Source: Bryobacterales bacterium (GTDB lineage: Bacteria > Acidobacteriota > Terriglobia > Bryobacterales > Bryobacteraceae). Taken from it: 64,000 nucleotides of DNA. This document shows, piece after piece, positions 41,143-64,000 of the stretch. The position numbers and the translations under genes were made by a program. The stretch spans positions 42,968 to 106,967 of the forward strand of contig PMTR01000111.1 in the NCBI GenBank assembly GCA_003167255.1, written 5' to 3'. Positions within the stretch are counted from its first letter, which is position 1; each line of letters opens with the position of its first letter. The notes beneath the pieces are model-generated. The model had not been told where the DNA came from, searched no databases, and saw only the letters and a list, made by a program, of their open reading frames with translations.

Positions 41143-44100
41143 GTGGGCTGCCTGTATTGCGGCAAAGAGATCGGTCTAGTTCGGCAGATGCGCGATCGCG
41201 AATTCTGCAGTCCCGCGCACCGGAAGAGTTACGGTGCGCGCCTGGGAAGAGCGATCGAGGATCTGGCTGCGCCTGAACCGCCTCCGGCAGCGGTTGCCGG
41301 TTTCCGCATCGACATGCCGCTACAGTCAGGCAATTTAAATCGCTCGGTTGCGGTCTGGGAATTCGGACACAGCAGCAGCGCAACTGAATTGCGCGATGGG
41401 TGGCCGGTTTCGATTGGCGGCGTGCGAGGCCAGGGGGCGAAAGCTCTCACCGGATCTCACTGGGCGCCTTTCGCGCCGGACCTCTGCGCGCGATCGCACG
41501 CCGGACCCTCGGTATATTGCCCGGACATTCAATTCCCCCGCTTCGAACTGGCGGCGGAAGATAGCATGCCGCCCGGGAGCGGAGAGGTCGCGGAATCGCC
41601 GCCGCTGGCGGGGGCCGCGTTCTGGGATATCCCCGAAGCCAACGAAGCGGCCTACATCATGGCCACGCCGGAAGTAGCCCGAAGGACGGCGCCGATTCTG
41701 GAACCAGCCGCGATGGCGATGGTGGCAGCACCGCTGGTGATCGGAATCAGGGGCCTGGTAGCGGCTCCGGCGGCGGAAGCGGTGGAGGCGCTATTTCGCC
41801 CGGCGCGGTATGCCGAAGACATGGCGTTCCCGGCCGCGGCGGCGTCGACTCAGGCGTGGGTTCTGGAACCGGTCGACGGATTGGCGGCGGCGCCCGAGAT
41901 CCGCGGCCCTGTGCCAACTCCGGCGGCGGAAGCGGTGGAAGCCCTGCTACCGGTGACGCCGTATGGTGCGGCGATGGCATTCCCCGCGGCGGTCGAGATG
42001 GGAAGCGCCTGGACGCTGGAACAGGCCGGCGAATTGTCGCTGGCGCTGCCGGATTGTGGCACGGCGGCGGCTCCGGCGGCGGAAGCGGCGGAGGCGTTAT
42101 GGCCCCCGGCGCCGTATGCCGGAGAGTTGGCGTTCCCAGCCGCGTCGGCGATGGTAAGCGCGTGGGTCCCGGAGCCGATCTCGGAAGTGTGGCTCGAGTT
42201 CGAAGGCTGCGGCATGATGGCGGCTCCGGCAGCCGAAGTGGTGGAGGCTCTGCTTCCGCCCGCACCGTATGCCGATGCGGCGGCCTTCCCGGCTGCGGCC
42301 GCACCAGCCACGAGAGTGGCATGGACGCTCGAGCCGGCGGACGTGCCGTCGCTCGTTCTGGAAGGCTGCGGGGCGATGGCCGCTGCGGCGCCAGAAGCGG
42401 CGGAGACTCTCTTCCCGGCCACGCCGATGGCTCAGGCGGTCGAGTTTCGATCGAGCGCCGTGCGGTTGCCGGAACTGGCATTGACGGCCGTGCCGGAAGC
42501 ACAGACGGAAACGGCGGAAGATGTTGCGGAGGCCGTGGAGGCGGTGCCTCCGCCGGAATCCTGGATGACGCCTCCGCCGGCGTGCGAAGTAGAGCGCGAA
42601 GTCTGGCCGGTCGAGGCCGCAGCGTTGCCGCTCGAAGCCGCGGTCCAAGTGCCTGGTGCGGCGGCGCTGGCGATTGCCGAGCCGATGATGCGCGAGAGCG
42701 CCGGCTGGCGGCTCGCTCCTTTGGCCGAACCAGTAGTGGCTTACGTCTCGGCGCGGCTCGCGGAGAGCATCGCCGAAGTCGCCTTGCAGCCCGCGGCGTT
42801 TTGTGTGCCGGATCTGGCGGGCCTGGGCCTCGCTGGAAAACGCCGATCCACGCCCGCGGGGCCGGCGGCGCAACGGATACCGAACCCGGCCTCGCCGGAA
42901 CGTGGCTCGAGTCTGGCGGCGGAGCCGGCTGCGGCAGCGGGCTCCGGCGTGATCCGATTCCCGGACCTGGTGCTGGCGCAGACGACCGGCAGTTCGACCG
43001 GCGCGTTCCGCGTATCGGAAGCGGGCTTGGCGGTTCCCGGGACGGCCGTTCCCGACTGCCGCGCGGCGCGGATCGAGCCGCTCTCCACGATCTCCATCGT
43101 GCCACCCACAACGGGCGCCGATCAGCCAGGCGCGGCCTTCCCGCAAGGGCCATTGGTTCCGCTGGAATTCTTCTGCCAGCGGGTTCCCATGGCGCCCAAG
43201 CGGAATCTGGCATGGCTGACCAGAAGCATTCCGGCACTGCCGCCGAGATTCGCGATGCGGACGGCTTTCGACCGCCTGGAAGATCTGGCGCTCATCCCGA
43301 TGAAGCGGGAGCGGGAGACGCCATCGTTCACCGAAATCTTCAGCATTGCGAATGCGGCGCGGCGCACCCAGCACAGCCGTCTGCGCGCGCCCGCGCGAGC
43401 GGTGGCGGCGGCCCTGCTGATGGCGGTGGGCTTGTGGTTCGGCGCCGGTTCGGCCAAGATCGGGCGCGAATTGCTCGCGGTGAAGACGGACTGGCCTTCG
43501 GTGGAGACGCCATCGTCATCGGCCGGGCGGGATTTCACGGCGGCCTTCGCGCGCGTCCGCTCGGTTTTTGTTCCTCCGGCGCCGCGAGCCTCTGAAGGAC
43601 CGATCGAAAAGATACGCCGCGCGATTCAAAGCCGCGCGGCGGCGGAGCTGAGCGACACGTTCCGCGGGATGGAAGCCTGGGGCGCGGCGGCCGCGGCTCT
43701 GCCGGCCGGATGGTCACGGCATCCCGACGGGTATATACGCACGGGCCAACTGGCGCTGTATCACCCGTCCCTGGGTTTTACCGACTACCGGCTGGAGTTT
43801 TTCGGCCAGATTGAAAGCCAGGGCATGGGGTGGGCGGTTCGCGCGTCGGACCCGAACAACTACTACGGCATGAAGTTCAAAATCATAGAGCCGGGGCTGC
43901 GGCCGGTGCTCGCGGCGGTGCATTATCCGGTGGTGGGCGGCAAGCAGGGCGAGCGCGTGGAAACACCCCTCAGCGTGATGATTCACAACAGCACGCCGTA
44001 CCACGTGGCCGTGGATGTAAAAGGCAACCGCGTGACCACATCCATTGAAGGCGAGGAAGTGGATTCGTGGACCGACGACAGTTTGAAGGTAGGCGGCGTA

Positions 44101-44388
44101 GGCTTCTTCAGCGATGCGGGCGAGAGCGCGCATCTTTATTGGATGAAGATCACCAAGAACCAGGATTGGTTGGGCCGGGTGTGCGCGTATTTTTCAGGCA
44201 ATGCCGGCAGCACCGAAACGGGCGATCTGTGGCGCGACGACTCTGTGCCGGCGCAACCTCCGCGGCCCTCGCCGCGGCCGTCTCCGGACGCCATCCTGGC
44301 GGCCGTCGAGAGCGAGGAGTTCCTTTACCACAGCCCGCACCGGGCCAGGATTTCGACTAACGAGAGGACCGAACCATGCAAGTCGTAA
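41143..44388 (+). CDS. Zinc-ribbon, Ala/Pro-rich tandem-repeat membrane protein
   Basis: 1081 residues from GTG 41143. The N-terminus is a small treble-clef-like motif with Cys3, Cys6, Cys22 and His26 (CLYCGKEI ... REFCSPAHRKS). About 700 residues rich in Ala, Pro, Glu and Val follow. Within them, from about residue 206, 51-residue units starting PAAEAVEAL and containing the phrases AFPAA and AW.LE are repeated four to five times; the DNA period is 153 bp. One membrane helix (AAALLMAVGLWFGAGSA) lies at about 752-772. A beta-rich C-terminal domain (YIRTGQLALYHPSLGFTDYR to FFSDAGESAHLYWMKI) resembles a concanavalin/laminin-G-like fold. Inside-out order would be: zinc motif in the cytoplasm, fold outside. 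It overlaps the TPR gene by 13 bp. Function unknown. Confidence 0.7.
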   Translation: MGCLYCGKEIGLVRQMRDREFCSPAHRKSYGARLGRAIEDLAAPEPPPAAVAGFRIDMPLQSGNLNRSVAVWEFGHSSSATELRDGWPVSIGGVRGQGAKALTGSHWAPFAPDLCARSHAGPSVYCPDIQFPRFELAAEDSMPPGSGEVAESPPLAGAAFWDIPEANEAAYIMATPEVARRTAPILEPAAMAMVAAPLVIGIRGLVAAPAAEAVEALFRPARYAEDMAFPAAAASTQAWVLEPVDGLAAAPEIRGPVPTPAAEAVEALLPVTPYGAAMAFPAAVEMGSAWTLEQAGELSLALPDCGTAAAPAAEAAEALWPPAPYAGELAFPAASAMVSAWVPEPISEVWLEFEGCGMMAAPAAEVVEALLPPAPYADAAAFPAAAAPATRVAWTLEPADVPSLVLEGCGAMAAAAPEAAETLFPATPMAQAVEFRSSAVRLPELALTAVPEAQTETAEDVAEAVEAVPPPESWMTPPPACEVEREVWPVEAAALPLEAAVQVPGAAALAIAEPMMRESAGWRLAPLAEPVVAYVSARLAESIAEVALQPAAFCVPDLAGLGLAGKRRSTPAGPAAQRIPNPASPERGSSLAAEPAAAAGSGVIRFPDLVLAQTTGSSTGAFRVSEAGLAVPGTAVPDCRAARIEPLSTISIVPPTTGADQPGAAFPQGPLVPLEFFCQRVPMAPKRNLAWLTRSIPALPPRFAMRTAFDRLEDLALIPMKRERETPSFTEIFSIANAARRTQHSRLRAPARAVAAALLMAVGLWFGAGSAKIGRELLAVKTDWPSVETPSSSAGRDFTAAFARVRSVFVPPAPRASEGPIEKIRRAIQSRAAAELSDTFRGMEAWGAAAAALPAGWSRHPDGYIRTGQLALYHPSLGFTDYRLEFFGQIESQGMGWAVRASDPNNYYGMKFKIIEPGLRPVLAAVHYPVVGGKQGERVETPLSVMIHNSTPYHVAVDVKGNRVTTSIEGEEVDSWTDDSLKVGGVGFFSDAGESAHLYWMKITKNQDWLGRVCAYFSGNAGSTETGDLWRDDSVPAQPPRPSPRPSPDAILAAVESEEFLYHSPHRARISTNERTEPCKS
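41764..42410 (+). repeat. 153-bp coding tandem repeats
   Basis: The units begin at 41764, 41917, 42070 and 42223 (exact 153-bp steps), each opening with (G/A)CTCCGGC(G/A)GC(G/C)GAAG. A fifth, diverged unit follows at about 42382 with a 159-bp step. Together they encode the 51-residue repeats of the membrane protein. Conserved spacing with divergent sequence suggests old repeats kept by selection for length. Confidence 0.75.
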
Positions 44389-46025
44389 AACAGGAGACCG
44401 GCATCAAGCATCCCATACCCGCCGGCGTGACCTCGATCGAGGATGTGCGGCAGCTCAAGCGGCCCAACCGCACGCTTTCGAAAGCTGTGTCGTTGCACCT
44501 GGAAGGCAAGCTGGAGAGCGCGGCGAAGCTGCTGTCGAAGGCCATCGAGGCGGGCGAACGCGATCCGGCTCTCTTTTCGGCTCTCGGGCACATCCATTTC
44601 GAAATGCGCGACTACGCATCGGCGGCGGCCACCTACACGCAACTGGTGGAGCTGGAGCCGCTGCATCGCACGGCGCACTTCAACCTGGGAGTCTGCCAGG
44701 GTAATTTGAAGGAATGGAAGGCGGCGACGGTTTCGTTCCGCGATGCGGCCGACGCGGACGCCACGCGGGCCGACGCGCTGCTGGGGTTGGGGATTTCGCT
44801 GATCCACACGGGCGAGCCGGGCGAAGCCCTGGAGCCGCTCGACAAGTATCTGAGCCTGTTCCCGGAGCACGAACAGGCGGTGTTCGGAAAAGCGGTGGCC
44901 TTGCAGCAGACCGGGCGCCACGCCGAAGCCGTGGAGCAGTACCGCAAGGTGCTGGCGCGCAATCCGCGCTGCGAGGAAGCGCTCTCGAACCTGGTGGCGA
45001 TGTTCCTGGAAAAGAAAGACCACGATGCGGTTCGCCGCTACGCGGAGATGCTGGTGGAACTGCAGCCGGAATCCACGGTGGCGATTGAGGCGCTGGCCAC
45101 GCTGGCATTTGCCGAGGGCGATTTTCCGGCGGCGGCGCGGCATTGCCGCAGCCTTTCGGAGATGGCGCCCGACCGCTTCGAAAACTGGTTCAACCTGGGG
45201 GTGGCGTACCACAAGCTGGGCCATCACGATAAGGCCGTGCAGGCCTACCGCCAGGCCACCGGGCTGAAGCCGGATTGCGCGCAAGCCCACTTGAACCTGG
45301 GCGTGGCGCTCCAGGAGCTGAGCGACCTTCCGAGCGCGCGCGCCTGCTACGAGCGGGCCCTGCAAGTGGATCCCAACCAGGCGGGCGTTCTGTGGAACCT
45401 GGCGCTGGTGCTGGAACAGCAGGGCGAGCGCAACTGGGCGGAGAAGCTTTACGAGCGGATTCCCGAACAGGCGTCGGAATCCTGCGACGCGACTTTCCGG
45501 CTGGGATACTTGCGGCTGCTGCGCGGCGATTACGCCGGCAGTGCCCTCGCCTTCGAGACCTGCATCCACGTGCGGCCGGACTGGCCGGAAGCCTGTCTGA
45601 ACGCGGGGATCGCTTACGCGCGTTTGGGCGAAACCGATAACGCCAGACGGTATTTCCAGGAAGCCCTGATGATCCGGCCCGATTCGTCCGACGCCGTGCG
45701 CGGCCTGGCGGCGCTGGCTTTGGAGCAGCAGGATTTCGTGGAAGCGTACGAGCTGCATCGCCGTCTGATCGAGATGGGCGAGCGCGGCCCCGAGCTTTTC
45801 TACAACGCGGGCCTGATCTGCCAGAAGCGGGGCCAGAACGAAGAAGCGGTGGGATTCTACCAGCAGGCGCTGGCCGAGGATCCGGAATTCGCCGAAGCGC
45901 TGCTCAACCTGGGCCATGCGCTGATGGCGCTGGGGCAGGAAGAGGAAGCGCGGTCGTACTGGCGGCGGGCGATCCGCGAGAAGCCGGAGCTGGCGCAGAC
46001 GTATTTCGAGCCGGCGGCATCGTAA
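44376..46025 (+). CDS. Tetratricopeptide-repeat protein
   Basis: 549-residue soluble protein composed almost wholly of TPR units, about 14 of them. Typical units are LFSALGHIHFEMRDYASAAA and AHFNLGVCQGNLKEWKAA; later ones include HLNLGVALQELSDLPSARAC, with the W/L/G/Y/A/P spacing intact. There is no signal peptide or helix. It starts 13 bp before the end of the zinc-ribbon membrane-protein gene, so the two are co-translated; the TPR protein is a likely cytoplasmic partner of that protein's N-terminus (inference). TPR proteins act as interaction scaffolds, and nothing here identifies the partner more closely. Confidence 0.88.
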   Translation: MQVVKQETGIKHPIPAGVTSIEDVRQLKRPNRTLSKAVSLHLEGKLESAAKLLSKAIEAGERDPALFSALGHIHFEMRDYASAAATYTQLVELEPLHRTAHFNLGVCQGNLKEWKAATVSFRDAADADATRADALLGLGISLIHTGEPGEALEPLDKYLSLFPEHEQAVFGKAVALQQTGRHAEAVEQYRKVLARNPRCEEALSNLVAMFLEKKDHDAVRRYAEMLVELQPESTVAIEALATLAFAEGDFPAAARHCRSLSEMAPDRFENWFNLGVAYHKLGHHDKAVQAYRQATGLKPDCAQAHLNLGVALQELSDLPSARACYERALQVDPNQAGVLWNLALVLEQQGERNWAEKLYERIPEQASESCDATFRLGYLRLLRGDYAGSALAFETCIHVRPDWPEACLNAGIAYARLGETDNARRYFQEALMIRPDSSDAVRGLAALALEQQDFVEAYELHRRLIEMGERGPELFYNAGLICQKRGQNEEAVGFYQQALAEDPEFAEALLNLGHALMALGQEEEARSYWRRAIREKPELAQTYFEPAAS

Positions 46026-54731: not shown

Positions 54732-56423
54732 CTAGCGCGCCGGTTGCGGCGCGGGCATGGTTTCCTTGGTGAAGCGCGGAATCATCTGGTCGCGGTTGGC
54801 GGCGTGCCAAACGGCGGCGGCGATGATGGCGGCGTCCTTCTTCACATCGTCCGGAAGAATGCGTTCGTAGGTGTCGAGGTTGGTGTGGTGAGTCAGGACG
54901 TTGTAATCGATGGGGTCCTGCGAGCAGCCCACGCCCGGCAGCCCGGCGTTGTTGAACGATGTGCTGTCGGTGCCGCCGGTGGCGCGGCTGTTGGTGGCGC
55001 TGATGCCGCCTACGCCGAAATCGGCGAAATCCATGAACAGCGGGCGCAACGCCGCGGCCGCTTCCGGCGGGCCGAAAACGCTGGCGCCGCGAATGCGCCC
55101 GGTGCCGGTATCCACGTTGAAGTAGACATCCAGCTTTTGCCATTCGGGCTTGGGCTCTTCGGCCGTGCCGAAGTGTTGCTTCACGTAGGCCAGCGAACCG
55201 AGCAGCCCTTCCTCTTCGCCACTCCACAGCGCCACGCGGATGGTGCGCCGCGGCTTCAGGCCCATGGACTGAATCACGCGCACGGCTTCCATCATGATGG
55301 CGGAGCCGATGCCGTTGTCGGTGGCGCCGGTGGCCGCGTGCCAGGAATCGAAGTGGCCGCCCAGCATGACGATCTCGTCGGCTTTGTCGGAGCCGGGGAT
55401 CTCGGCAACCACGTTGTTACTGGTCTTGCCTTCGGGATAGGTGTGATTGAGGATGTTGAATTCGAGCTTGACGTCTTCGCCATCGGCCAGAAGGCGCTCG
55501 ATGCGGCCGTAGTCGTCGTTGCGGACGATCGCGGTGGGGATGGTCTTGGTGACGTCGTACGCGTTATGCGCTTGCGCCACGATGATGCCGTTGGGCCGCG
55601 CGGCGTCATTGAGGCGCACCAGTGCGCCATTAGCCACCAGCATGGCGTCAATCTGATCCCGCACTTCGTTCGCCGTCATGCGCGTGGGATCCGGCTCGCC
55701 GCCTCTGCCGCGGCCGCCACCGCCGCCGCCCCGGCCGCCCCGGCCGGCGTTGGGATTGTTGGGATCGTAGCGCTGCGTGTTCTGCGCATCGTCCACGCGC
55801 CGCGCCGGCGACTCGGACATGATGTCAACCGCGGTCTGCTTGCCGACCATGACAATCTTGCCGCGCACCTTGTCTTTGTTCGCGGCGATCCACTGGGCGA
55901 ACTCTTCCTTGGTGGGCTGTAGCCTCTGAGGCCCGCCGCCGCGCCCGCCGAAGCCGCCCCGCCCGCCAGCGGCAGCCTGGGCATTGGGGTCCACCGGCAC
56001 TTCCGGCCCCTGCGGCACAATCAACTGGATGGCCGAGCCGGTCACAGTGCCGTTGGTGGAAGGCGTCCACCCCAGCACTTCGAATTTCAAATTCTCTTTG
56101 ACGGGCGAGGTGATGAATCCGACGGCGCGTTCGTTCATCCAGCCGGCGCGCGCGAAATCCCACGGCTCGGTGTGCGCGTTCTTAAGACCAAACCTGGTCA
56201 GCTCGGCCACGGCCCATTTGACAGCCGCTTCGTGGTTCGGCGAGCCGGTGACGCGCGGACCGTAACGGTCGGTGATCATGTGCTCGATGCGCATGATCTG
56301 GGAATGTTCCATCTCTTCACTGCGGATTTTGGCGGTGGTGACCTCATCCACTTTTTCCTGGGCGGCTTCCTGGGCGATCAGCAGGCAGGATACGGCCACA
56401 GCGGCAAGCAACAGCTTCTTCAT
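54732..56423 (-). CDS. M28-family zinc peptidase with Gly-rich inserts
   Basis: 563 residues with a signal peptide (LLLAAVAVSCLLIAQEA). The metal site of the M28 aminopeptidase/carboxypeptidase family is complete in its first half: His357 and Asp359 (GGHFDSW), bridging Asp369 (GATDNGIG), and catalytic Glu403/404 (WSGEEEGLLGS). A later Asp (FNVDTGTG) and a His near the C-terminus (LTHHTNLDTYER) complete it. A PA-like insert precedes the catalytic part. Two Gly/Arg-rich runs, about 152-165 (GGRGGFGGRGGG) and 227-242 (GRGGRGGGGGGRGRGG), interrupt the insert and are unusual for the family. Secreted peptide degradation is the likely role. It is flanked on both sides by the same palindromic element. 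Confidence 0.88.
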   Translation of the reverse strand: MKKLLLAAVAVSCLLIAQEAAQEKVDEVTTAKIRSEEMEHSQIMRIEHMITDRYGPRVTGSPNHEAAVKWAVAELTRFGLKNAHTEPWDFARAGWMNERAVGFITSPVKENLKFEVLGWTPSTNGTVTGSAIQLIVPQGPEVPVDPNAQAAAGGRGGFGGRGGGPQRLQPTKEEFAQWIAANKDKVRGKIVMVGKQTAVDIMSESPARRVDDAQNTQRYDPNNPNAGRGGRGGGGGGRGRGGEPDPTRMTANEVRDQIDAMLVANGALVRLNDAARPNGIIVAQAHNAYDVTKTIPTAIVRNDDYGRIERLLADGEDVKLEFNILNHTYPEGKTSNNVVAEIPGSDKADEIVMLGGHFDSWHAATGATDNGIGSAIMMEAVRVIQSMGLKPRRTIRVALWSGEEEGLLGSLAYVKQHFGTAEEPKPEWQKLDVYFNVDTGTGRIRGASVFGPPEAAAALRPLFMDFADFGVGGISATNSRATGGTDSTSFNNAGLPGVGCSQDPIDYNVLTHHTNLDTYERILPDDVKKDAAIIAAAVWHAANRDQMIPRFTKETMPAPQPAR

Positions 56424-56604: not shown

Positions 56605-59600
56605 TCAGAACGTGATGCGTCCCGAGAGTTGCAACTGGCGCGGTCCCCAGAGCAGGTTACTGGTGGCCGTGGTTGCCAGGAACGGGGTGGAAGTGTAGGG
56701 AGTGAAACAAGCGTTGGTGTGGCCGGCGCAAAGGCCGGACCCGGCCGCGACATACGAGAACGCGGTATTGCTCACGCCGGAGACATTGGTGTGGTTGAAC
56801 AGGTTGAAGGCTTCGCCGATGAGTGATAGCTTCAGCCGTTCGGTGATCGAGAACTGCCGGCCCACCCGGAAGTCCACGTTGTGGAAACCAGGGGCAGTGG
56901 ACGAATTGCGCGGCAGCCAGCCGGCGCGGCCTTGGGTAGGACCAGCGTAAGCTACGCCGCCGCTCACGCCGCCATCCAGCGGGCTCGGAGCCCCGGTGAT
57001 GTAGGGCGTTACCGGCTGGCCGGTGGACATGGTCACGATGGTGGAGAACGCCCAGCCATCCAGGACCAGCCGGGCCGGCCGGTTCGCGAGACCCTTCGCG
57101 GAGGGCATCCACACGGCGTTGGCCACGAACCGCTGGCGCTGGTCGAGATCCGAAAGCGCGTATTCGAGCTTGCGGTTATAGGGATCGATGGGATAATCGG
57201 TGCCGTTGAACGTGCCGAAGTTTCCCGCCGCCATGGCGCCGTCGAACGCCTTGCTCAACGTGTAATTCATCGTGAACTCCAGGCCATGCTGCATGGGCCG
57301 GCGCAGAGTGAGCACCATCGAGTTGTACCAGGAATTGACATCGCTATAGCCGACGAAGATGTCGCCGGTATTGGTGTTGATGCGGCTGGTATAGAAGGGA
57401 ACGGTATAGGTTTGCGCGGTTTGACCGCTGCTCAGGATGTCATAGCTCTTGGTGGTGGTGGAGGGAGCCAGGTTGGCATCGACGAAGATGGGCAAATGTT
57501 CGCCCCGGCTCACCACGTATGCCACCGAGCCGCTCAGGTCGCCCGCCAACTGGCGTTCCAGGGTGACTTCGCCCTCGTGGGCTCGCGGATTGACCCAGTC
57601 GGGCGACTGGCCGCGCGTTACCTGGCTGGCGGCAGGCGGAGTGAAAGTGACCACCTGCGGCGTCAGCGCGCCGGAGAACGGCGCGGCTATCTGCGGGCCG
57701 GGCGGGGCCCAGATCACGTTGGGAAACGTCAACGCCGGGCAGTAGTTCGAATTGGTCGCGACCGGGCTGCAGGTGAAGGTTTGCTGAATCACGCCGTTCT
57801 CCACGCGCGTGGCGTAGTAGGTGCTGTTGGTGCTCTTGGCGTAAAAGAGGCCGTAGCCGGTGCGCAGCACGGTCTTCGGCGTGATCTGCCAGGCCAGGCC
57901 AAAACGCGGCGCGAACTGGTCCTTCGGAACGTGGATCGTCGACGTATACAGCGTGGTGAGCGGCGTCAGCGTGTTGGGCTGCGACGGAGCCGTAATCGTA
58001 AAGACGTCGTAGCGCAGGCCCATGTTCAACGTCAGCTTCGAGCTCGCCTTCCAGTTGTCTTCGAAAAAGGCGGCGAAATCATTGTTGTGAAAATCGTCCT
58101 TGCCGACGTGCGTGACGGGGTCGTTGACCTGCGTGAAGGTGCTGTAATGCTTGCCGGTCAGACCGTCTCCCATGTTGATTCCGTAAATGTCCTCCACCCA
58201 GGAGTTGAACGAGGCCTGCGCCGACGATCCGCTGTAGGCGTACTGGCCGGTCCCGTTGTACAGATTGATCATGACTTCGTGGATAAGGTTCAGATCCACG
58301 CCGGTCTTGAACGTATGGCGGCCGTGGACTTTGGAAAGCGTATCCGAAATCTGGATGCGGTGTTCGTCCGGTTCGGCTGTTCGCGGCAGCGCGTAGTTTT
58401 CGCCGTAGGTCATCAGGCTGGAGAGGTTCACGTAGGGAGCGGGTGCGTTGGAGCCGGCGGCTTCCAGGTCGCGGCCCCACTGGAACCGGAGATTGTTCAC
58501 GGCGGAGCTGGCGATGGTGGAATCCCAGTTGGCCACAAAGATGCGCTCGTGGAAGACGTAGCTTCCGTTGGTGCCCAGCGAGCTGTTGTTGGCTGTAGGC
58601 GAGGTGGTGTAGGCATTGGGCGCGCGGTAATTCATGAAATCGAACGAGCTGCTGAAGTGGTTGCGCGTGGTGGCCTGGTAATCCAGCCGGCCGAAGGCGA
58701 CATCCTGGTTGGTGTCGCGGGGGAAGGTGCCTTGCTGGCCGAACAGGAAAGCATTGGCTCCGGCGCACTGCGCGGCAGTCACCAGCGCGGGGCAGGAAAG
58801 GGCGCTCACGGTCGAACTGTAGACGCTGCTGGTGTACGTGATGGGGTTGACTTTGCGCGAGCCATCGTACGTGGCGAAGTAAAACAGCTTGTCTTTGATC
58901 AGCGAGCCGCCGGCGCTGCCGCCGAACTGCTGCCATTGATGGATGGGCTGGCTGTAGGTGCCGCGCGACTTCGGATAGGAATCGAGCGCATTGAAAGTGG
59001 GGTAGCGCAGATAGTAGAACAAGTCCCCGTGGAAAGCGTTGGCGCCGGATTTGGTCACGGCATTCACCACGCCCCCCGCGGCCTGCCCCAGTTCCGCGCT
59101 GTAATTGCTGGAGCTCACCTGATACTCCTTGATGGAGTCCATGCTGTAGACGTAGGCGCCGCTGTTGGCCCGCCCGCGTGCCTCCGAGAAGAACGCCTGG
59201 TTGTTGTTGGCGCCATCCACGGTGTTCGAGTTGTAGAGGCCGGAGATTCCCCGGTAGGAGATCAGCCCGCTGGTACCGTCGGTGGTGACGTTGGGGGTGA
59301 GCAGCACGAAGCTGTCCCAACGCCGTCCGGCGATCGGCAGATTGCTGACCGCATTCTCGCTGATTACCTGTGAGACCTCGGTTTTTTCGGTATCAACCAC
59401 GGGCGCGGCGCCGGTGACCGTCACTTCCTGCTGCGTGGACTGCACGGACAACGCTACGTTGATCGCCAGAGTCTGTCCCACCTGCAGCATCAGGTCTTTA
59501 TGGAGCACGCTCGCGAATCCCGACTTGGCGGCCTCCAGGCTATAGTGGCCCGGTGGCAGAAACGCCGCGGTGTACACCCCGGCCTCGCTAGTCTGGGTCT

Positions 59601-59796
59601 TGCGCTCGATGCCGGTTTCGGTGTTGCGGATGGTCACATTCGCCGCAGGCACCACCGCGCCAGACGCGTCAGTGATGCTGCCGGTAATGGTACCTGAACC
59701 GGCCGTTTGAGAAAAAGCATGATTCGGACAAGCAATCAGGAAGGCCAACAATCCGCCGGCCGCCAGAAACCCTCGAAGCAAATTTGATCTGCGCAT
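56605..59796 (-). CDS. TonB-dependent receptor 4 with carboxypeptidase-regulatory-like domain
   Basis: 1063 residues: signal peptide (FLAAGGLLAFLIACPNHAFS), a regulatory-like domain (GTITGSITDASGAVVPAANV followed by EAGVYTAAFLPPGHYSLEA), a plug (VVDTEKTEVSQVISENAVSN to YSAELGQAAGGVVNAVTKSG) and a barrel ending in RQLQLSGRITF with terminal Phe. This is the most canonical of the four receptors, without a low-complexity insert or frameshift. ATG 59796 is preceded by GGGAGG. It is transcribed in the same direction as the M28 peptidase, 181 bp apart with palindromes between. A shared role in scavenging peptides is possible but unproven. Confidence 0.9.
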   Translation of the reverse strand: MRRSNLLRGFLAAGGLLAFLIACPNHAFSQTAGSGTITGSITDASGAVVPAANVTIRNTETGIERKTQTSEAGVYTAAFLPPGHYSLEAAKSGFASVLHKDLMLQVGQTLAINVALSVQSTQQEVTVTGAAPVVDTEKTEVSQVISENAVSNLPIAGRRWDSFVLLTPNVTTDGTSGLISYRGISGLYNSNTVDGANNNQAFFSEARGRANSGAYVYSMDSIKEYQVSSSNYSAELGQAAGGVVNAVTKSGANAFHGDLFYYLRYPTFNALDSYPKSRGTYSQPIHQWQQFGGSAGGSLIKDKLFYFATYDGSRKVNPITYTSSVYSSTVSALSCPALVTAAQCAGANAFLFGQQGTFPRDTNQDVAFGRLDYQATTRNHFSSSFDFMNYRAPNAYTTSPTANNSSLGTNGSYVFHERIFVANWDSTIASSAVNNLRFQWGRDLEAAGSNAPAPYVNLSSLMTYGENYALPRTAEPDEHRIQISDTLSKVHGRHTFKTGVDLNLIHEVMINLYNGTGQYAYSGSSAQASFNSWVEDIYGINMGDGLTGKHYSTFTQVNDPVTHVGKDDFHNNDFAAFFEDNWKASSKLTLNMGLRYDVFTITAPSQPNTLTPLTTLYTSTIHVPKDQFAPRFGLAWQITPKTVLRTGYGLFYAKSTNSTYYATRVENGVIQQTFTCSPVATNSNYCPALTFPNVIWAPPGPQIAAPFSGALTPQVVTFTPPAASQVTRGQSPDWVNPRAHEGEVTLERQLAGDLSGSVAYVVSRGEHLPIFVDANLAPSTTTKSYDILSSGQTAQTYTVPFYTSRINTNTGDIFVGYSDVNSWYNSMVLTLRRPMQHGLEFTMNYTLSKAFDGAMAAGNFGTFNGTDYPIDPYNRKLEYALSDLDQRQRFVANAVWMPSAKGLANRPARLVLDGWAFSTIVTMSTGQPVTPYITGAPSPLDGGVSGGVAYAGPTQGRAGWLPRNSSTAPGFHNVDFRVGRQFSITERLKLSLIGEAFNLFNHTNVSGVSNTAFSYVAAGSGLCAGHTNACFTPYTSTPFLATTATSNLLWGPRQLQLSGRITF

Positions 59797-60061
59797 TCAT
59801 AACCTCCCGTTCAGATTAGTAAGTGCCACGATTAGTTGGACTTGGGCACCGTCACACTACTCTTGTGATCCACCTATGAACAACCGTTTGGGGACGGAAC
59901 GTCCCATTGTCCCGCTCACCCGGCGGGCGACCCTTCAACATAAACCGCACTCCAAAGCTTTGTGTACCTCACAGCATAACCGAAATTGGTTACGGGCGCA
60001 TATCTATATCGGGATTTCGAGGATTTCCCTTTGCCCGGCGCGGACTGTGCGAGACTGAAAT

Positions 60062-61849
60062 GTGCGAAAAACCCTTCTCGCACTGCTCTTTTCCGGGGTG
60101 GCCGCCTGTGCGGCACAGCAACTGTGGGACCCGGCCGACCTATGGAAGTGGCGGACCGCGTCGGACGCGCGCATCCGGCCGGACGGCCAGTGGGTGGTCT
60201 ACGTGGAAGGCTGGAGCGACCGGGCGGCGGATGCTTCCTACTCCAACTTGTGGGCCGTCTCCACCGACGGAAAAAGGCGCGTCCGCATCACCGATGGCGA
60301 GTGGCGCGACTGGTCGCCGCGCTGGTCGCCGGAGGGGTCGCGCGTGGCGTGGATTCGAGAGAAGGCAGGTGGCGTCGAGCTGCGCGTGGGGCGGCTGGAG
60401 GCGCACGAGGAATCGCATCAGGAATCGATGATCGCGAGCGGCCCGATCGAACGCCTAGCCTGGTCGCCGGATGGGAAATGGATCGCCTTCACGGCACGGG
60501 CGAGTTGGTTCGTGGCTTCCGTATCTGGCGGCGCGGCGCGGCACATTCCGGCAGGCGGCCTGGCGGCCGCGGGTGAACCGGCCTGGATGCCCGATGGACA
60601 ATCGATTGTCAGCGCGGCGGCCGATGGTGAAATCTACTCGATTCGCGTGGCCGATGGCGCGGCGCGGCGACTGACCAATGACGCCGCGCGCAACCAGGAT
60701 CCGGTCGTCTCGCCGGACGGCGCGCGCATCGCGTTCCTTGCCACCGATTCCCGGCCGCGCAGCTACTCCATTCGCAAGTTGATGGTCATGAACGCGGATG
60801 GCAGCGGCGCGAAGGTGCTCGGCGGCGCGCTGGACCGCGATTCGACCGGCCCACAGTGGAGCTCCGATTCGCGTACCGTGTATTTCATTGCCGACGATCG
60901 CGGATCCACGCACGTTTACGCCGGGCGCAACGACGGCTCCACGCGGCAGGCCACTTCCTCCCCCGAGCGCCTGCGCGGCTTCACCTTGGCCGACAATGGC
61001 CGCGCCGTTTCGGTGCGCTCCACGGCGGCGGGAGCCGAGGAAGTGGTGACGTTCGCGGTGGATCTCGCGCCGGTTCCGGTGGTGCTGGCCGCGCCCAACT
61101 CAGCTCTGATCGCGGAACGTCAGACGGGCGCGGCGCAAGAAATTGCCTTCCAGTCTGGCGGCAAGACCATTCAGGGTTGGGTCATCAGGCCGCCGGCCTT
61201 CGACGCGTCGAAACAGGTTCCGCTGCTGCTCGATATAGCGGACGCGCCGCGCCGCATGTGGGGCGTTGAATTCTCGCCCGAGGCCCAGATCTACGCCGCG
61301 CGCGGTTACGTGGTGCTGCGCATCAACCCGCGCGGCACCCCGGGATACGGCGAGGAGTTCGGCTATCTGCTGCCGACGCGCTTGCCGGGCGACGATGCCG
61401 ACGACCTGCTGCGCGCCGTCGATTTCGTGGCGGCGCAAGGCTCGATTGACGTGCGGCGCCTGGCCGTCAAGGGCGGCTTGCTGGCGGCCTGGTTAATCGG
61501 ACATAGCGACCGCTTCAAGGCGGCGGTGACACGCCATCCAATCGTCGATTGGGCGCTGGATGTCATGACCGCGCCGGATGGCGCGCGCCACGCAACCGAT
61601 TGGATGAATGCACTACCGTGGGAAGACCCGGATCAGTACGTCAAGCACTCCCCGATTTACTTCGCGGGCAACTTCAAGACGCCGACGTTGGTGCTGGCGG
61701 GAGATCCCGATCCGCAATCCGATGAGTTGTATTTTGCGCTACGCGCGCGCCACGTGGAGTGCGCGCTGGTGCGGATCGCGGACGACCCGAAGGCCAGCGC
61801 GCTGGCGATCGAGATGGAAGCGACGCTGGCTTGGTTGAAGCGGATCTAA
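60062..61849 (+). CDS. S9-family (prolyl oligopeptidase) protein lacking catalytic Ser and His
   Basis: 595 residues from GTG 60062, with a signal peptide (LLALLFSGVAACAAQQ), a WD40-like/PD40 propeller (DPADLWKWRTASDARIRPDG, WSPRWSPEGSRVAWIR and later blades to about 340) and an alpha/beta hydrolase domain. The oxyanion-side phrase YVVLRINPRGTPGYGEEFG is normal. At the nucleophile, where S9 enzymes have GGSYGGY before AWLIGH, this protein reads KGGLLAAWLIGHSDRF (residues 470-485), so Ser and its loop are missing. At the catalytic His, expected as ESHG, it reads ADDPKAS. Asp in LAGDPDPQSDELY remains. It is therefore a predicted pseudo-peptidase, possibly a binding protein. There is no frameshift. 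Confidence 0.85.
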   Translation: MRKTLLALLFSGVAACAAQQLWDPADLWKWRTASDARIRPDGQWVVYVEGWSDRAADASYSNLWAVSTDGKRRVRITDGEWRDWSPRWSPEGSRVAWIREKAGGVELRVGRLEAHEESHQESMIASGPIERLAWSPDGKWIAFTARASWFVASVSGGAARHIPAGGLAAAGEPAWMPDGQSIVSAAADGEIYSIRVADGAARRLTNDAARNQDPVVSPDGARIAFLATDSRPRSYSIRKLMVMNADGSGAKVLGGALDRDSTGPQWSSDSRTVYFIADDRGSTHVYAGRNDGSTRQATSSPERLRGFTLADNGRAVSVRSTAAGAEEVVTFAVDLAPVPVVLAAPNSALIAERQTGAAQEIAFQSGGKTIQGWVIRPPAFDASKQVPLLLDIADAPRRMWGVEFSPEAQIYAARGYVVLRINPRGTPGYGEEFGYLLPTRLPGDDADDLLRAVDFVAAQGSIDVRRLAVKGGLLAAWLIGHSDRFKAAVTRHPIVDWALDVMTAPDGARHATDWMNALPWEDPDQYVKHSPIYFAGNFKTPTLVLAGDPDPQSDELYFALRARHVECALVRIADDPKASALAIEMEATLAWLKRI

Positions 61850-61920
61850 GTGGGGCGGCCAATCCTGGCCGCAGCCGGCTTCAGCCGGCGCTGCGCGCGC
61901 GCGAGTATTCTTGCCGATCC

Positions 61921-61967
61921 CGAAGAGCCGCCTGAAGGCGGCTGCGGGCAAAATTGCCCGCCCCACC
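61921..61967. repeat. Dispersed repeat, copy 2 of the GCCGCCTGAAGGCGGC element
   Basis: Same unit as 6932-6975, in the gap between the S9-family gene and the convergent P-type ATPase gene. A second hairpin unit with GGCGGCCAATCCTGGCCGC lies just before it (61853-61872). Confidence 0.65.
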
Positions 61968-61973
61968 AGGGCG

Positions 61974-64000
61974 TTACCGCAGGCGCAAACTGTTGCTTAC
62001 GACGGTCACGCTCGAAGCGGCCATGGCGGCGGCGGCCAGCATGGGCGAGAGCAGCCCCAGCGCGGCGATGGGGATCCCCACCGTGTTGTAGGCGAAGGCC
62101 CAGAAAAGGTTTTGGCGGATGATCCGCATGGTGCGCCGCGAAAGCTCGATGGCGTCGGCCACACCGTTGAGGTTGTCGCGCATCAGCGTGATGCCGCCGG
62201 CTTCCATGGCGGCGGCGGTGCCGGAACCCATGGCGATGCCGAGATCGGCTTGCGCCAGCGCGGGCGCGTCGTTGATGCCGTCACCCACCATGGCGACGCG
62301 GCGGCCGCCGGCCTGCAATTTTTTTACCTCGGCCATTTTTTGATCGGGCATCACTTCGGCGAGAAAGTGCTCGATACCGGCTTGGCGCGCGACGGCCTCG
62401 GCGGTCGCGCGGTTATCGCCGGTGATCATCCAGACCTCCAGGCCCATGTCGCGCAGGCGCCGCACGGCTTCGGCGGCTTCGGGCTTGATGGTGTCGGCGA
62501 TTTCGATGGAACCGGCCACCACGCCGTCAACCGTTACGGTGGCGCCTGGTTTCGACACCACCACCTGGTGCGATCCCACCAGGGCGCGGACGCCGAGGCC
62601 GGCCAGCGCGGAGAAACCCGTGACCTCTTGTAGCGGGAGGTGGCGCGACGCGGCGGCTTCGACGACGGCCTTGCCCAGGGGATGTTCGGAGTAACGCTCG
62701 GCGGAAGCGGCCAGGCCCAGAACATCATTCCCGGAGAAGCCCGCGGCGGGAATGACACGCATGACGCGCGGCTTGCCTTGCGTGATGGTGCCGGTTTTAT
62801 CGAGCACAATCGCGTCGATTCGGTAAGCCATTTCGAGAGCTTCGCCGCCCTTGATGAGGATGCCGCGCCCGGCGCCGCGCCCGGTGCCCACCATGATGGC
62901 GGTGGGCGTGGCCAGCCCCAGCGCGCAAGGGCAGGCGATGATCAGCACCGCCACCGCGTTCACCATGGCCGTCGAGAGCGGCGCGAACAGCAGCCAGACG
63001 CCGAATGTGACGAGCGCGGCGGCCAGCACGGCGACGGTGAAATAGCCGCTCACCACGTCGGCCAGGAGAGCCACCGGGGCGCGCGAACCCTGCGCCTGCT
63101 TCACCATTTCGATCATGCGCTGCAGCACCGTGGCGCGCCCCACTTCGGTGGCCTGGTAGCGAAAACTTCCGGAGCAGTTGACGGTTCCAGCGAAGGCCTT
63201 CGCGCCGGGGTGCTTGTCGACGGGCAGGCTTTCGCCGGTGAGCATGGATTCGTCCACCGCCGATTCGCCGTCGAGGACCACGCCATCCACCGGGATGCGC
63301 TCGCCGGGCCGCACGACCAAAGTGTCGCCGGCGCGCACCTCCGCAACCGGCGTTTCCACTTCCACGCCATCGCGAAGCACGCGCGCGGTAGCCGGCTGCA
63401 ACTCGATGAGGCGGCGGATGGCGCCGGACGCCTTTATACGCGCGCGGGCCTCCATCGTGCGGCCCAGCAGGATGAGCGCGATGATGACGGCGGCAGCTTC
63501 GAAATAGACCATGTGCCCGCCGCGCGCGGTTTCCCAAAGCGAGTAGAGGAACGCGGCGCCGGTGCCGAGCGCGATCAGCGTGTTCATATTAGCGGTGCGA
63601 TGGCGGACGGCGCTCCAGGCGGCTGTGTAAAACGGCGCGCCGGAATAAAAGATGACGGGCAGCGTGAGAGCCAGTTGGATCCACGGAGCCACGTGCAACA
63701 TTCCCAACACCATCACCGGCACGGTAAAGATGATCGCGACGATGAGGCGCCGGCGGTATTGGGTTTCGGCTGCGTCCACGGCTGGCTCGGTCTCGGGCAC
63801 GCCGTAGCCGAGATCTTCGATGACGCCGATGAAATCGGCCACGCGGACGCGCGCCGGGTCAAACTCCACGGTAGCGGTGTTGGTGGCCAGGTTGACGTTG
63901 GCGCGCGTGACGCCGCTGGTTGAAGAGAGCGTGCGCTCGATCGAGCGCGCGCAGGCCGCGCAGGTCATGCCGGAAACAGGAAGGTCGATGCGCTCGGCGG
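61974..64000 (-). CDS. copA: Copper-type P1B ATPase, incomplete at the window edge
   Basis: ATP-driven export of Cu(I) (or Ag) across the inner membrane is the known role of this subfamily. The gene runs off the right edge: the frame is still open at 64000 and the first in-window ATG (63968) is the Met of the metal site [14 protein letters not shown], so at least the start of the heavy-metal domain lies outside. Seen in order: the CxxC domain, helices, TGES actuator loop ([10 protein letters not shown]), ion-site [11 protein letters not shown], phosphorylation [18 protein letters not shown], and [16 protein letters not shown]. All key residues are present. The end ([12 protein letters not shown]) is typical for CopA. 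A CusF-like copper lipoprotein lies far off at 13.8 kb and is not part of this operon. Confidence 0.92.

Follow-up and report, generated by a model that had tools for sequence, protein, structure and literature searches.

The closest solved relatives of the protein described here are prokaryotic S9 peptidases of the acylaminoacyl-peptidase/carboxypeptidase group (8wt1 from Geobacillus, 5yzm to 6ikg from Deinococcus, and 4hxe from Pyrococcus), which have the same two-domain fold over residues 20–595, with Z scores of 30–34 and 20–28% identity. These enzymes keep the nucleophile elbow, whereas the protein encoded in our window (a 64,000-nucleotide stretch of a contig from a Bryobacterales bacterium) has lost the elbow with its Ser as well as the loop that carries the His. 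Reuse of a bacterial protease fold is known from MamO and CspC, whose folds are unrelated to S9. As described in the available parts of the respective sources, MamO is a metal-binding activator of a partner protease (PMC4794232) and CspC a sensor of bile acid (PMC6636752); the losses in these two proteins differ from those in the group of genes (the clade) to which the window gene belongs.

Within S9 itself, the available text of one source describes two animal S9B proteins, the Kv4 channel partners DPP6 and DPP10, as inactive members that are likewise kept for non-catalytic work (PMC4350108). The Ser is replaced by Asp in DPP6 and by Gly in DPP10, whereas in the window clade whole loops are missing, the S9 group is a different one, and the bearers are bacteria. 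According to the same text, DPP10 has an unaltered elbow with His and Asp in place and hydrogen-bonded, engineered variants of it gave no activity, and its access channel is narrowed (PMC4350108). For prokaryotes, a survey of POP genes reports 15 in Solibacter usitatus and signal peptides in 75% of acidobacterial POP homologues, and in its available text there is no mention of the terms 'inactive', 'catalytic residue' or 'non-peptidase' (PMC4522959). Among the matches listed for the open PMC literature, we found no report of a bacterial S9 pseudo-peptidase clade. The phenomenon is known from DPP6 and DPP10, and the unusually thorough bacterial form of it is new to the literature searched: the S9 pseudo-peptidases that we found described are animal proteins with one catalytic residue swapped, and here the protein is bacterial and the catalytic loops are gone.

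The gene occupies positions 60062–61849 on the forward strand of the window, with a GTG start, 595 codons, a TAA stop and no internal stop codons. An apparent Sec-type signal peptide was recognized by eye at approximately residues 1–19 (60062–60118, forward strand), where the predicted structure has a helix at residues 2–15, and the protein is presumably exported. (Cys16 resembles a lipobox by eye, also in the copy from the same genus, but most orthologues are without it and the lipoprotein assignment was dropped.) Pfam, the structural model and fold comparison delimit a beta-propeller domain at approximately residues 22–359 (60125–61138, forward strand) and an alpha/beta-hydrolase domain at approximately residues 360–595 (61139–61846, forward strand). 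The protein belongs to family S9 both by this fold and by its match to the Peptidase_S9 profile (PF00326), which scores 93.3 bits against a curated cut-off of 22.6 (2e-26), and PD40 propeller repeats are also found by Pfam. Against the NCBIfam dipeptidyl-peptidase Dpp5 model (NF053518) it scores 167.6 bits, below the equivalog cut-off of 900; by sequence, the nearest solved structure is 8wt1 (2.8e-56). The subfamily label S9C stems from the original prediction, and none of these comparisons assigned it. A note of caution is warranted, since the Pfam match alone would call the window gene a peptidase.

An AlphaFold model of the window protein, computed from a 13-sequence input, has a mean pLDDT of 78.4 and a pTM of 0.82. 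Residues 20–595 of the model superpose on 8wt1 with a Z score of 34.3 (519 residues aligned at 2.2 Å; TM 0.86 by query length), and the two-domain S9 fold is therefore entire, in agreement with the original prediction that propeller and hydrolase core had been maintained in an open frame. The pLDDT falls below 50 at residues 427–443, 499–525 and 527–533, all around the former active site. A control model of an intact relative (L061) was unusable, with a mean pLDDT of 66.4 and residues 552–672 below 50. In the propeller, two loops of the intact relatives are absent from the clade by alignment. A propeller loop near residues 146–150 (60497–60511, forward strand) is absent from the window copy, the same-genus copy and the G253 copy, and is retained by most other clade members.

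Relatives were drawn from 61 genomes (the window's own and 60 relatives), from 237 genomes of the family, and from a named genome collection; 40 stretches were taken from these relatives and their S9 proteins aligned. All residue counts refer to 24 clade rows from 24 genomes (the window copy and 23 orthologues), each reaching the active site, and to an intact comparison set of 24 relatives chosen out of a longer match list. One locus whose contig ends before the active site (L062) was excluded from every count, and a 25th bearer genome (G249), in which a contig end precedes the active site, enters no residue count.

An active S9 enzyme requires a nucleophile Ser in a GxSxG elbow and a catalytic His, and the clade has neither. 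First, four residues around the nucleophile are a gap in the window protein when it is aligned with 8wt1 and with a Deinococcus S9 enzyme, and the Ser within this gap is the residue altered in the structure entry titled S514A mutant. The missing GGSG corresponds to the junction K470/G471 (61469–61474, forward strand); in the Ser column none of the 24 clade rows has a residue, and all 24 selected intact relatives have Ser. Second, six residues (PHGIRG) including the catalytic His are missing after residue 575 (61784–61789, forward strand); this His column is again a gap in every clade row (24/24) and His in every selected intact relative (24/24). Third, the column of the catalytic Asp holds Asp in 18 clade rows, a gap in five and Gly in one, compared with Asp in all 24 selected intact relatives, and 4–7 residues straight after this position are missing in the clade. 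In the window copy D550 is aligned with the catalytic Asp (61709–61714, forward strand, including the site of the loop deletion directly after it), but the adjoining deletion makes the alignment uncertain there. Fourth, the HGGPH motif has become xDxPR: the first His is found in 0/24 clade rows, the first Gly is now Asp in 21/24, Pro stands in 23/24, and the last His is now Arg in 19/24. In the window copy, D394-A-P-R397 takes the place of GGPH (61241–61252, forward strand), and the selected intact relatives have Gly at the position of D394 (24/24) and His at that of R397 (22/24). Finally, at the position of D496 (61547–61549, forward strand) 21 of 23 clade rows carry Asp, where 22 of 24 intact relatives carry Asn. 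Across the whole clade, the residues missing from the hydrolase domain are GGSG, those following the Asp, PHGIRG, and a single one at another position.

The original prediction had held that the segment expected to carry GxSxGG had lost the Ser with its surrounding loop and that the catalytic His region was changed as well. Both statements proved correct, as did the count of two lost catalytic residues, and the damage is wider, extending to the Asp-adjacent loop and to HGGPH. An orthologue set that keeps Ser and His beside a window copy in neutral decay had been named as the contrary outcome, and the search instead found the losses to be common to the 23 orthologues. Identical gaps recurring in 24 genomes are not a matter of chance. 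An assembly or sequencing error in the window genome is refuted because the orthologues share the gaps, and the copies matching named records stem from several projects; the probability that we would leave to such an error is close to nil.

Judged by its sequence, the window protein cannot perform serine-peptidase chemistry. In its own genome there are 22 PF00326 matches, and among the 13 strongest of these the 12 others have a GxSxG-type Ser, with the window gene alone being without it. The residue before the remaining GG was considered as a substitute nucleophile and rejected: it is Ser in 8/24 clade rows, Val in five, Thr in four, Ala in four and Lys in three (the window copy has Lys), and since it varies there is no conserved nucleophile. 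An estimate based on random placement of the gaps (105 of 2,000,000 draws) was discarded as evidence, because it used rough positions and took the whole triad to be deleted, whereas the Asp is in most clade rows still aligned with Asp.

These losses have a single origin. In a gene tree built without the active-site columns (and leaving out L062, L117 and L124), 23 clade rows fall on one branch among intact genes, with an SH-aLRT support of 100. In a quick RpoB tree, with several partial rows and a long outgroup, 13 bearer genomes cluster together (SH-aLRT 93). Of 30 genomes, 27 are in this tree, G001, G200 and G242 having no RpoB match, and four of the 27 cover less than half of the columns. 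A search with the intact protein of G028 against the 25 bearer genomes and five sister-bearing genomes recovered matches of 67–71% in the four other sister-bearing genomes, whereas the best match outside the clade in any bearer is 48% (G002), and no intact sister gene was found by this search in any of the 25 bearers. Because no bearer genome shows an intact sister, the simplest reading is that the S9 peptidase gene was probably inactivated once and in place, in an ancestor from which a single lineage within the family derives, and that descent accounts for its present distribution. When 257 genomes of the order were searched, a single match outside the family came up at a threshold of 1e-100, below which degenerate copies would score, and this match (G037) is an intact gene.

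Genus membership was read from the genome ordering together with a separate genus check, by which 12 genera hold 32 genomes. The gene is present in 25 of these 32: nine genera have it in 21/21 genomes, and the others in 2/5 (g83), 1/2 (g87) and 1/4 (g49). Some of the seven gene-less genomes are incomplete and others are 98–100% complete, and the gene is dispensable. Three of the clade copies are damaged, those of G062 (L124) and G176 (L114) being more degenerate and that of G254 (L097) seemingly frameshifted, and the gene may therefore be failing in some lineages.

Selection on the remainder of the protein was estimated from dN/dS (Nei-Gojobori, with codon bootstrap) in five close clade pairs. 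The window copy compared with that of the same genus (G001) has a dN/dS of 0.133 (95% limits 0.099–0.177), with 0.097 (0.056–0.153) for the hydrolase part, and the four other clade pairs range from 0.233 to 0.313 (0.104–0.259 for the hydrolase part). Of five pairs of intact relatives compared, the four with finite dS gave values of 0.049–0.076, one of them being far from saturation (dS 0.53). The clade values are well under 1 yet above those of the intact pairs, and the constraint is therefore real but relaxed; in the hydrolase domain, the alignment columns have a mean entropy of 1.09 bits in the clade versus 0.67 in the intact relatives. Although the catalytic loops are gone, the hydrolase domain still evolves more slowly than the propeller, with the lower dN/dS in 5/5 clade pairs, and mostly so in intact pairs too. 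What remains of the protein is subject to purifying selection, though less strongly than its intact relatives are, and the proposal that this pseudo-peptidase is kept by selection is upheld by the comparison with the same-genus orthologue. Loss of catalytic residues in orthologues that remain under purifying selection is what characterizes a pseudoenzyme, and both features are observed here.

It could be argued that the gene is a relic on its way out, with fading constraint alone holding the fold, and a dN/dS several times that of intact relatives, the absence from seven genomes and the three damaged copies all agree with this. However, the upper 95% limits of dN/dS are only 0.15–0.39 across the five clade pairs, whether for the whole gene or the hydrolase domain, and open frames have persisted over 12 genera since the single origin. 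We regard a relic as quite improbable.

We consider it probable that the gene encodes an inactive S9 homologue whose losses have a single origin, whose remainder is selected, and whose job is binding without cutting. The presumably exported protein would bind a peptide in the cleft between propeller and hydrolase, or else a protein partner, without cleaving it, and the shortened and re-charged old site (D394, R397, D496 and D550) would be the likeliest place of new contacts. Alternatively, the old site may simply have been closed off, similar to the narrowed access channel of DPP10. A binding role is likely. A more specific version, in which one lineage of soil acidobacteria turned a peptidase into a conserved non-cutting receptor, with trimmed loops and a gained Asp/Arg pair holding a peptide or metal ligand, is offered tentatively as a speculation with some chance of being right. 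The clade, together with the intact sister genes in related genera, offers a natural series for studying non-cutting roles of the S9 scaffold.

The same four residues could instead form a new polar site, the old pocket having been rebuilt for other chemistry, or for a metal or a small ligand. The conservation of the clade-specific charges at D394, R397 and D496 speaks for this, since plain decay does not leave such residues. Nonetheless, the residues shared by 90% of the clade include no new Ser, Cys or His that could belong to a nucleophile set, and two of the four charges are not constant, the Asp at D550 being absent from 6/24 rows and the Arg at R397 from 5/24. Such a rebuilding seems unlikely, and binding without cutting is the reading that we prefer.

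The pseudo-S9 gene stands alone between two neighbors, a divergent TonB-type outer-membrane receptor with a carboxypeptidase-regulatory domain (56605–59796, reverse strand), which is followed on the same strand by an M28 peptidase (54732–56423, reverse strand), and a convergent heavy-metal ATPase (61974–63998). The ATPase neighbor recurs in G001 and, farther away, in G170, but the clade as a whole does not share this setting and we therefore draw no link from it. No neighbor that could point to an operon or partner gene is common to most of the 24 clade loci examined, many of whose contigs end early. A consensus scan of 59700–62000, which says little in itself, found no promoter-like or terminator-like sites. 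A divergent pair, consisting of an ORF of 870–1376 residues and then a TPR protein, adjoins the gene in 6/24 clade loci versus 0/12 intact loci, although in three loci the ORF picked by the script runs antisense to the S9 gene. The window carries this pair 14 kb from the gene (41143–46025, forward strand), and the ORF of the pair, with 1081 residues, has no Pfam match at 1e-4. We read the pair as inherited gene order and not as a functional link. The small downstream ORFs vary among the loci inspected.
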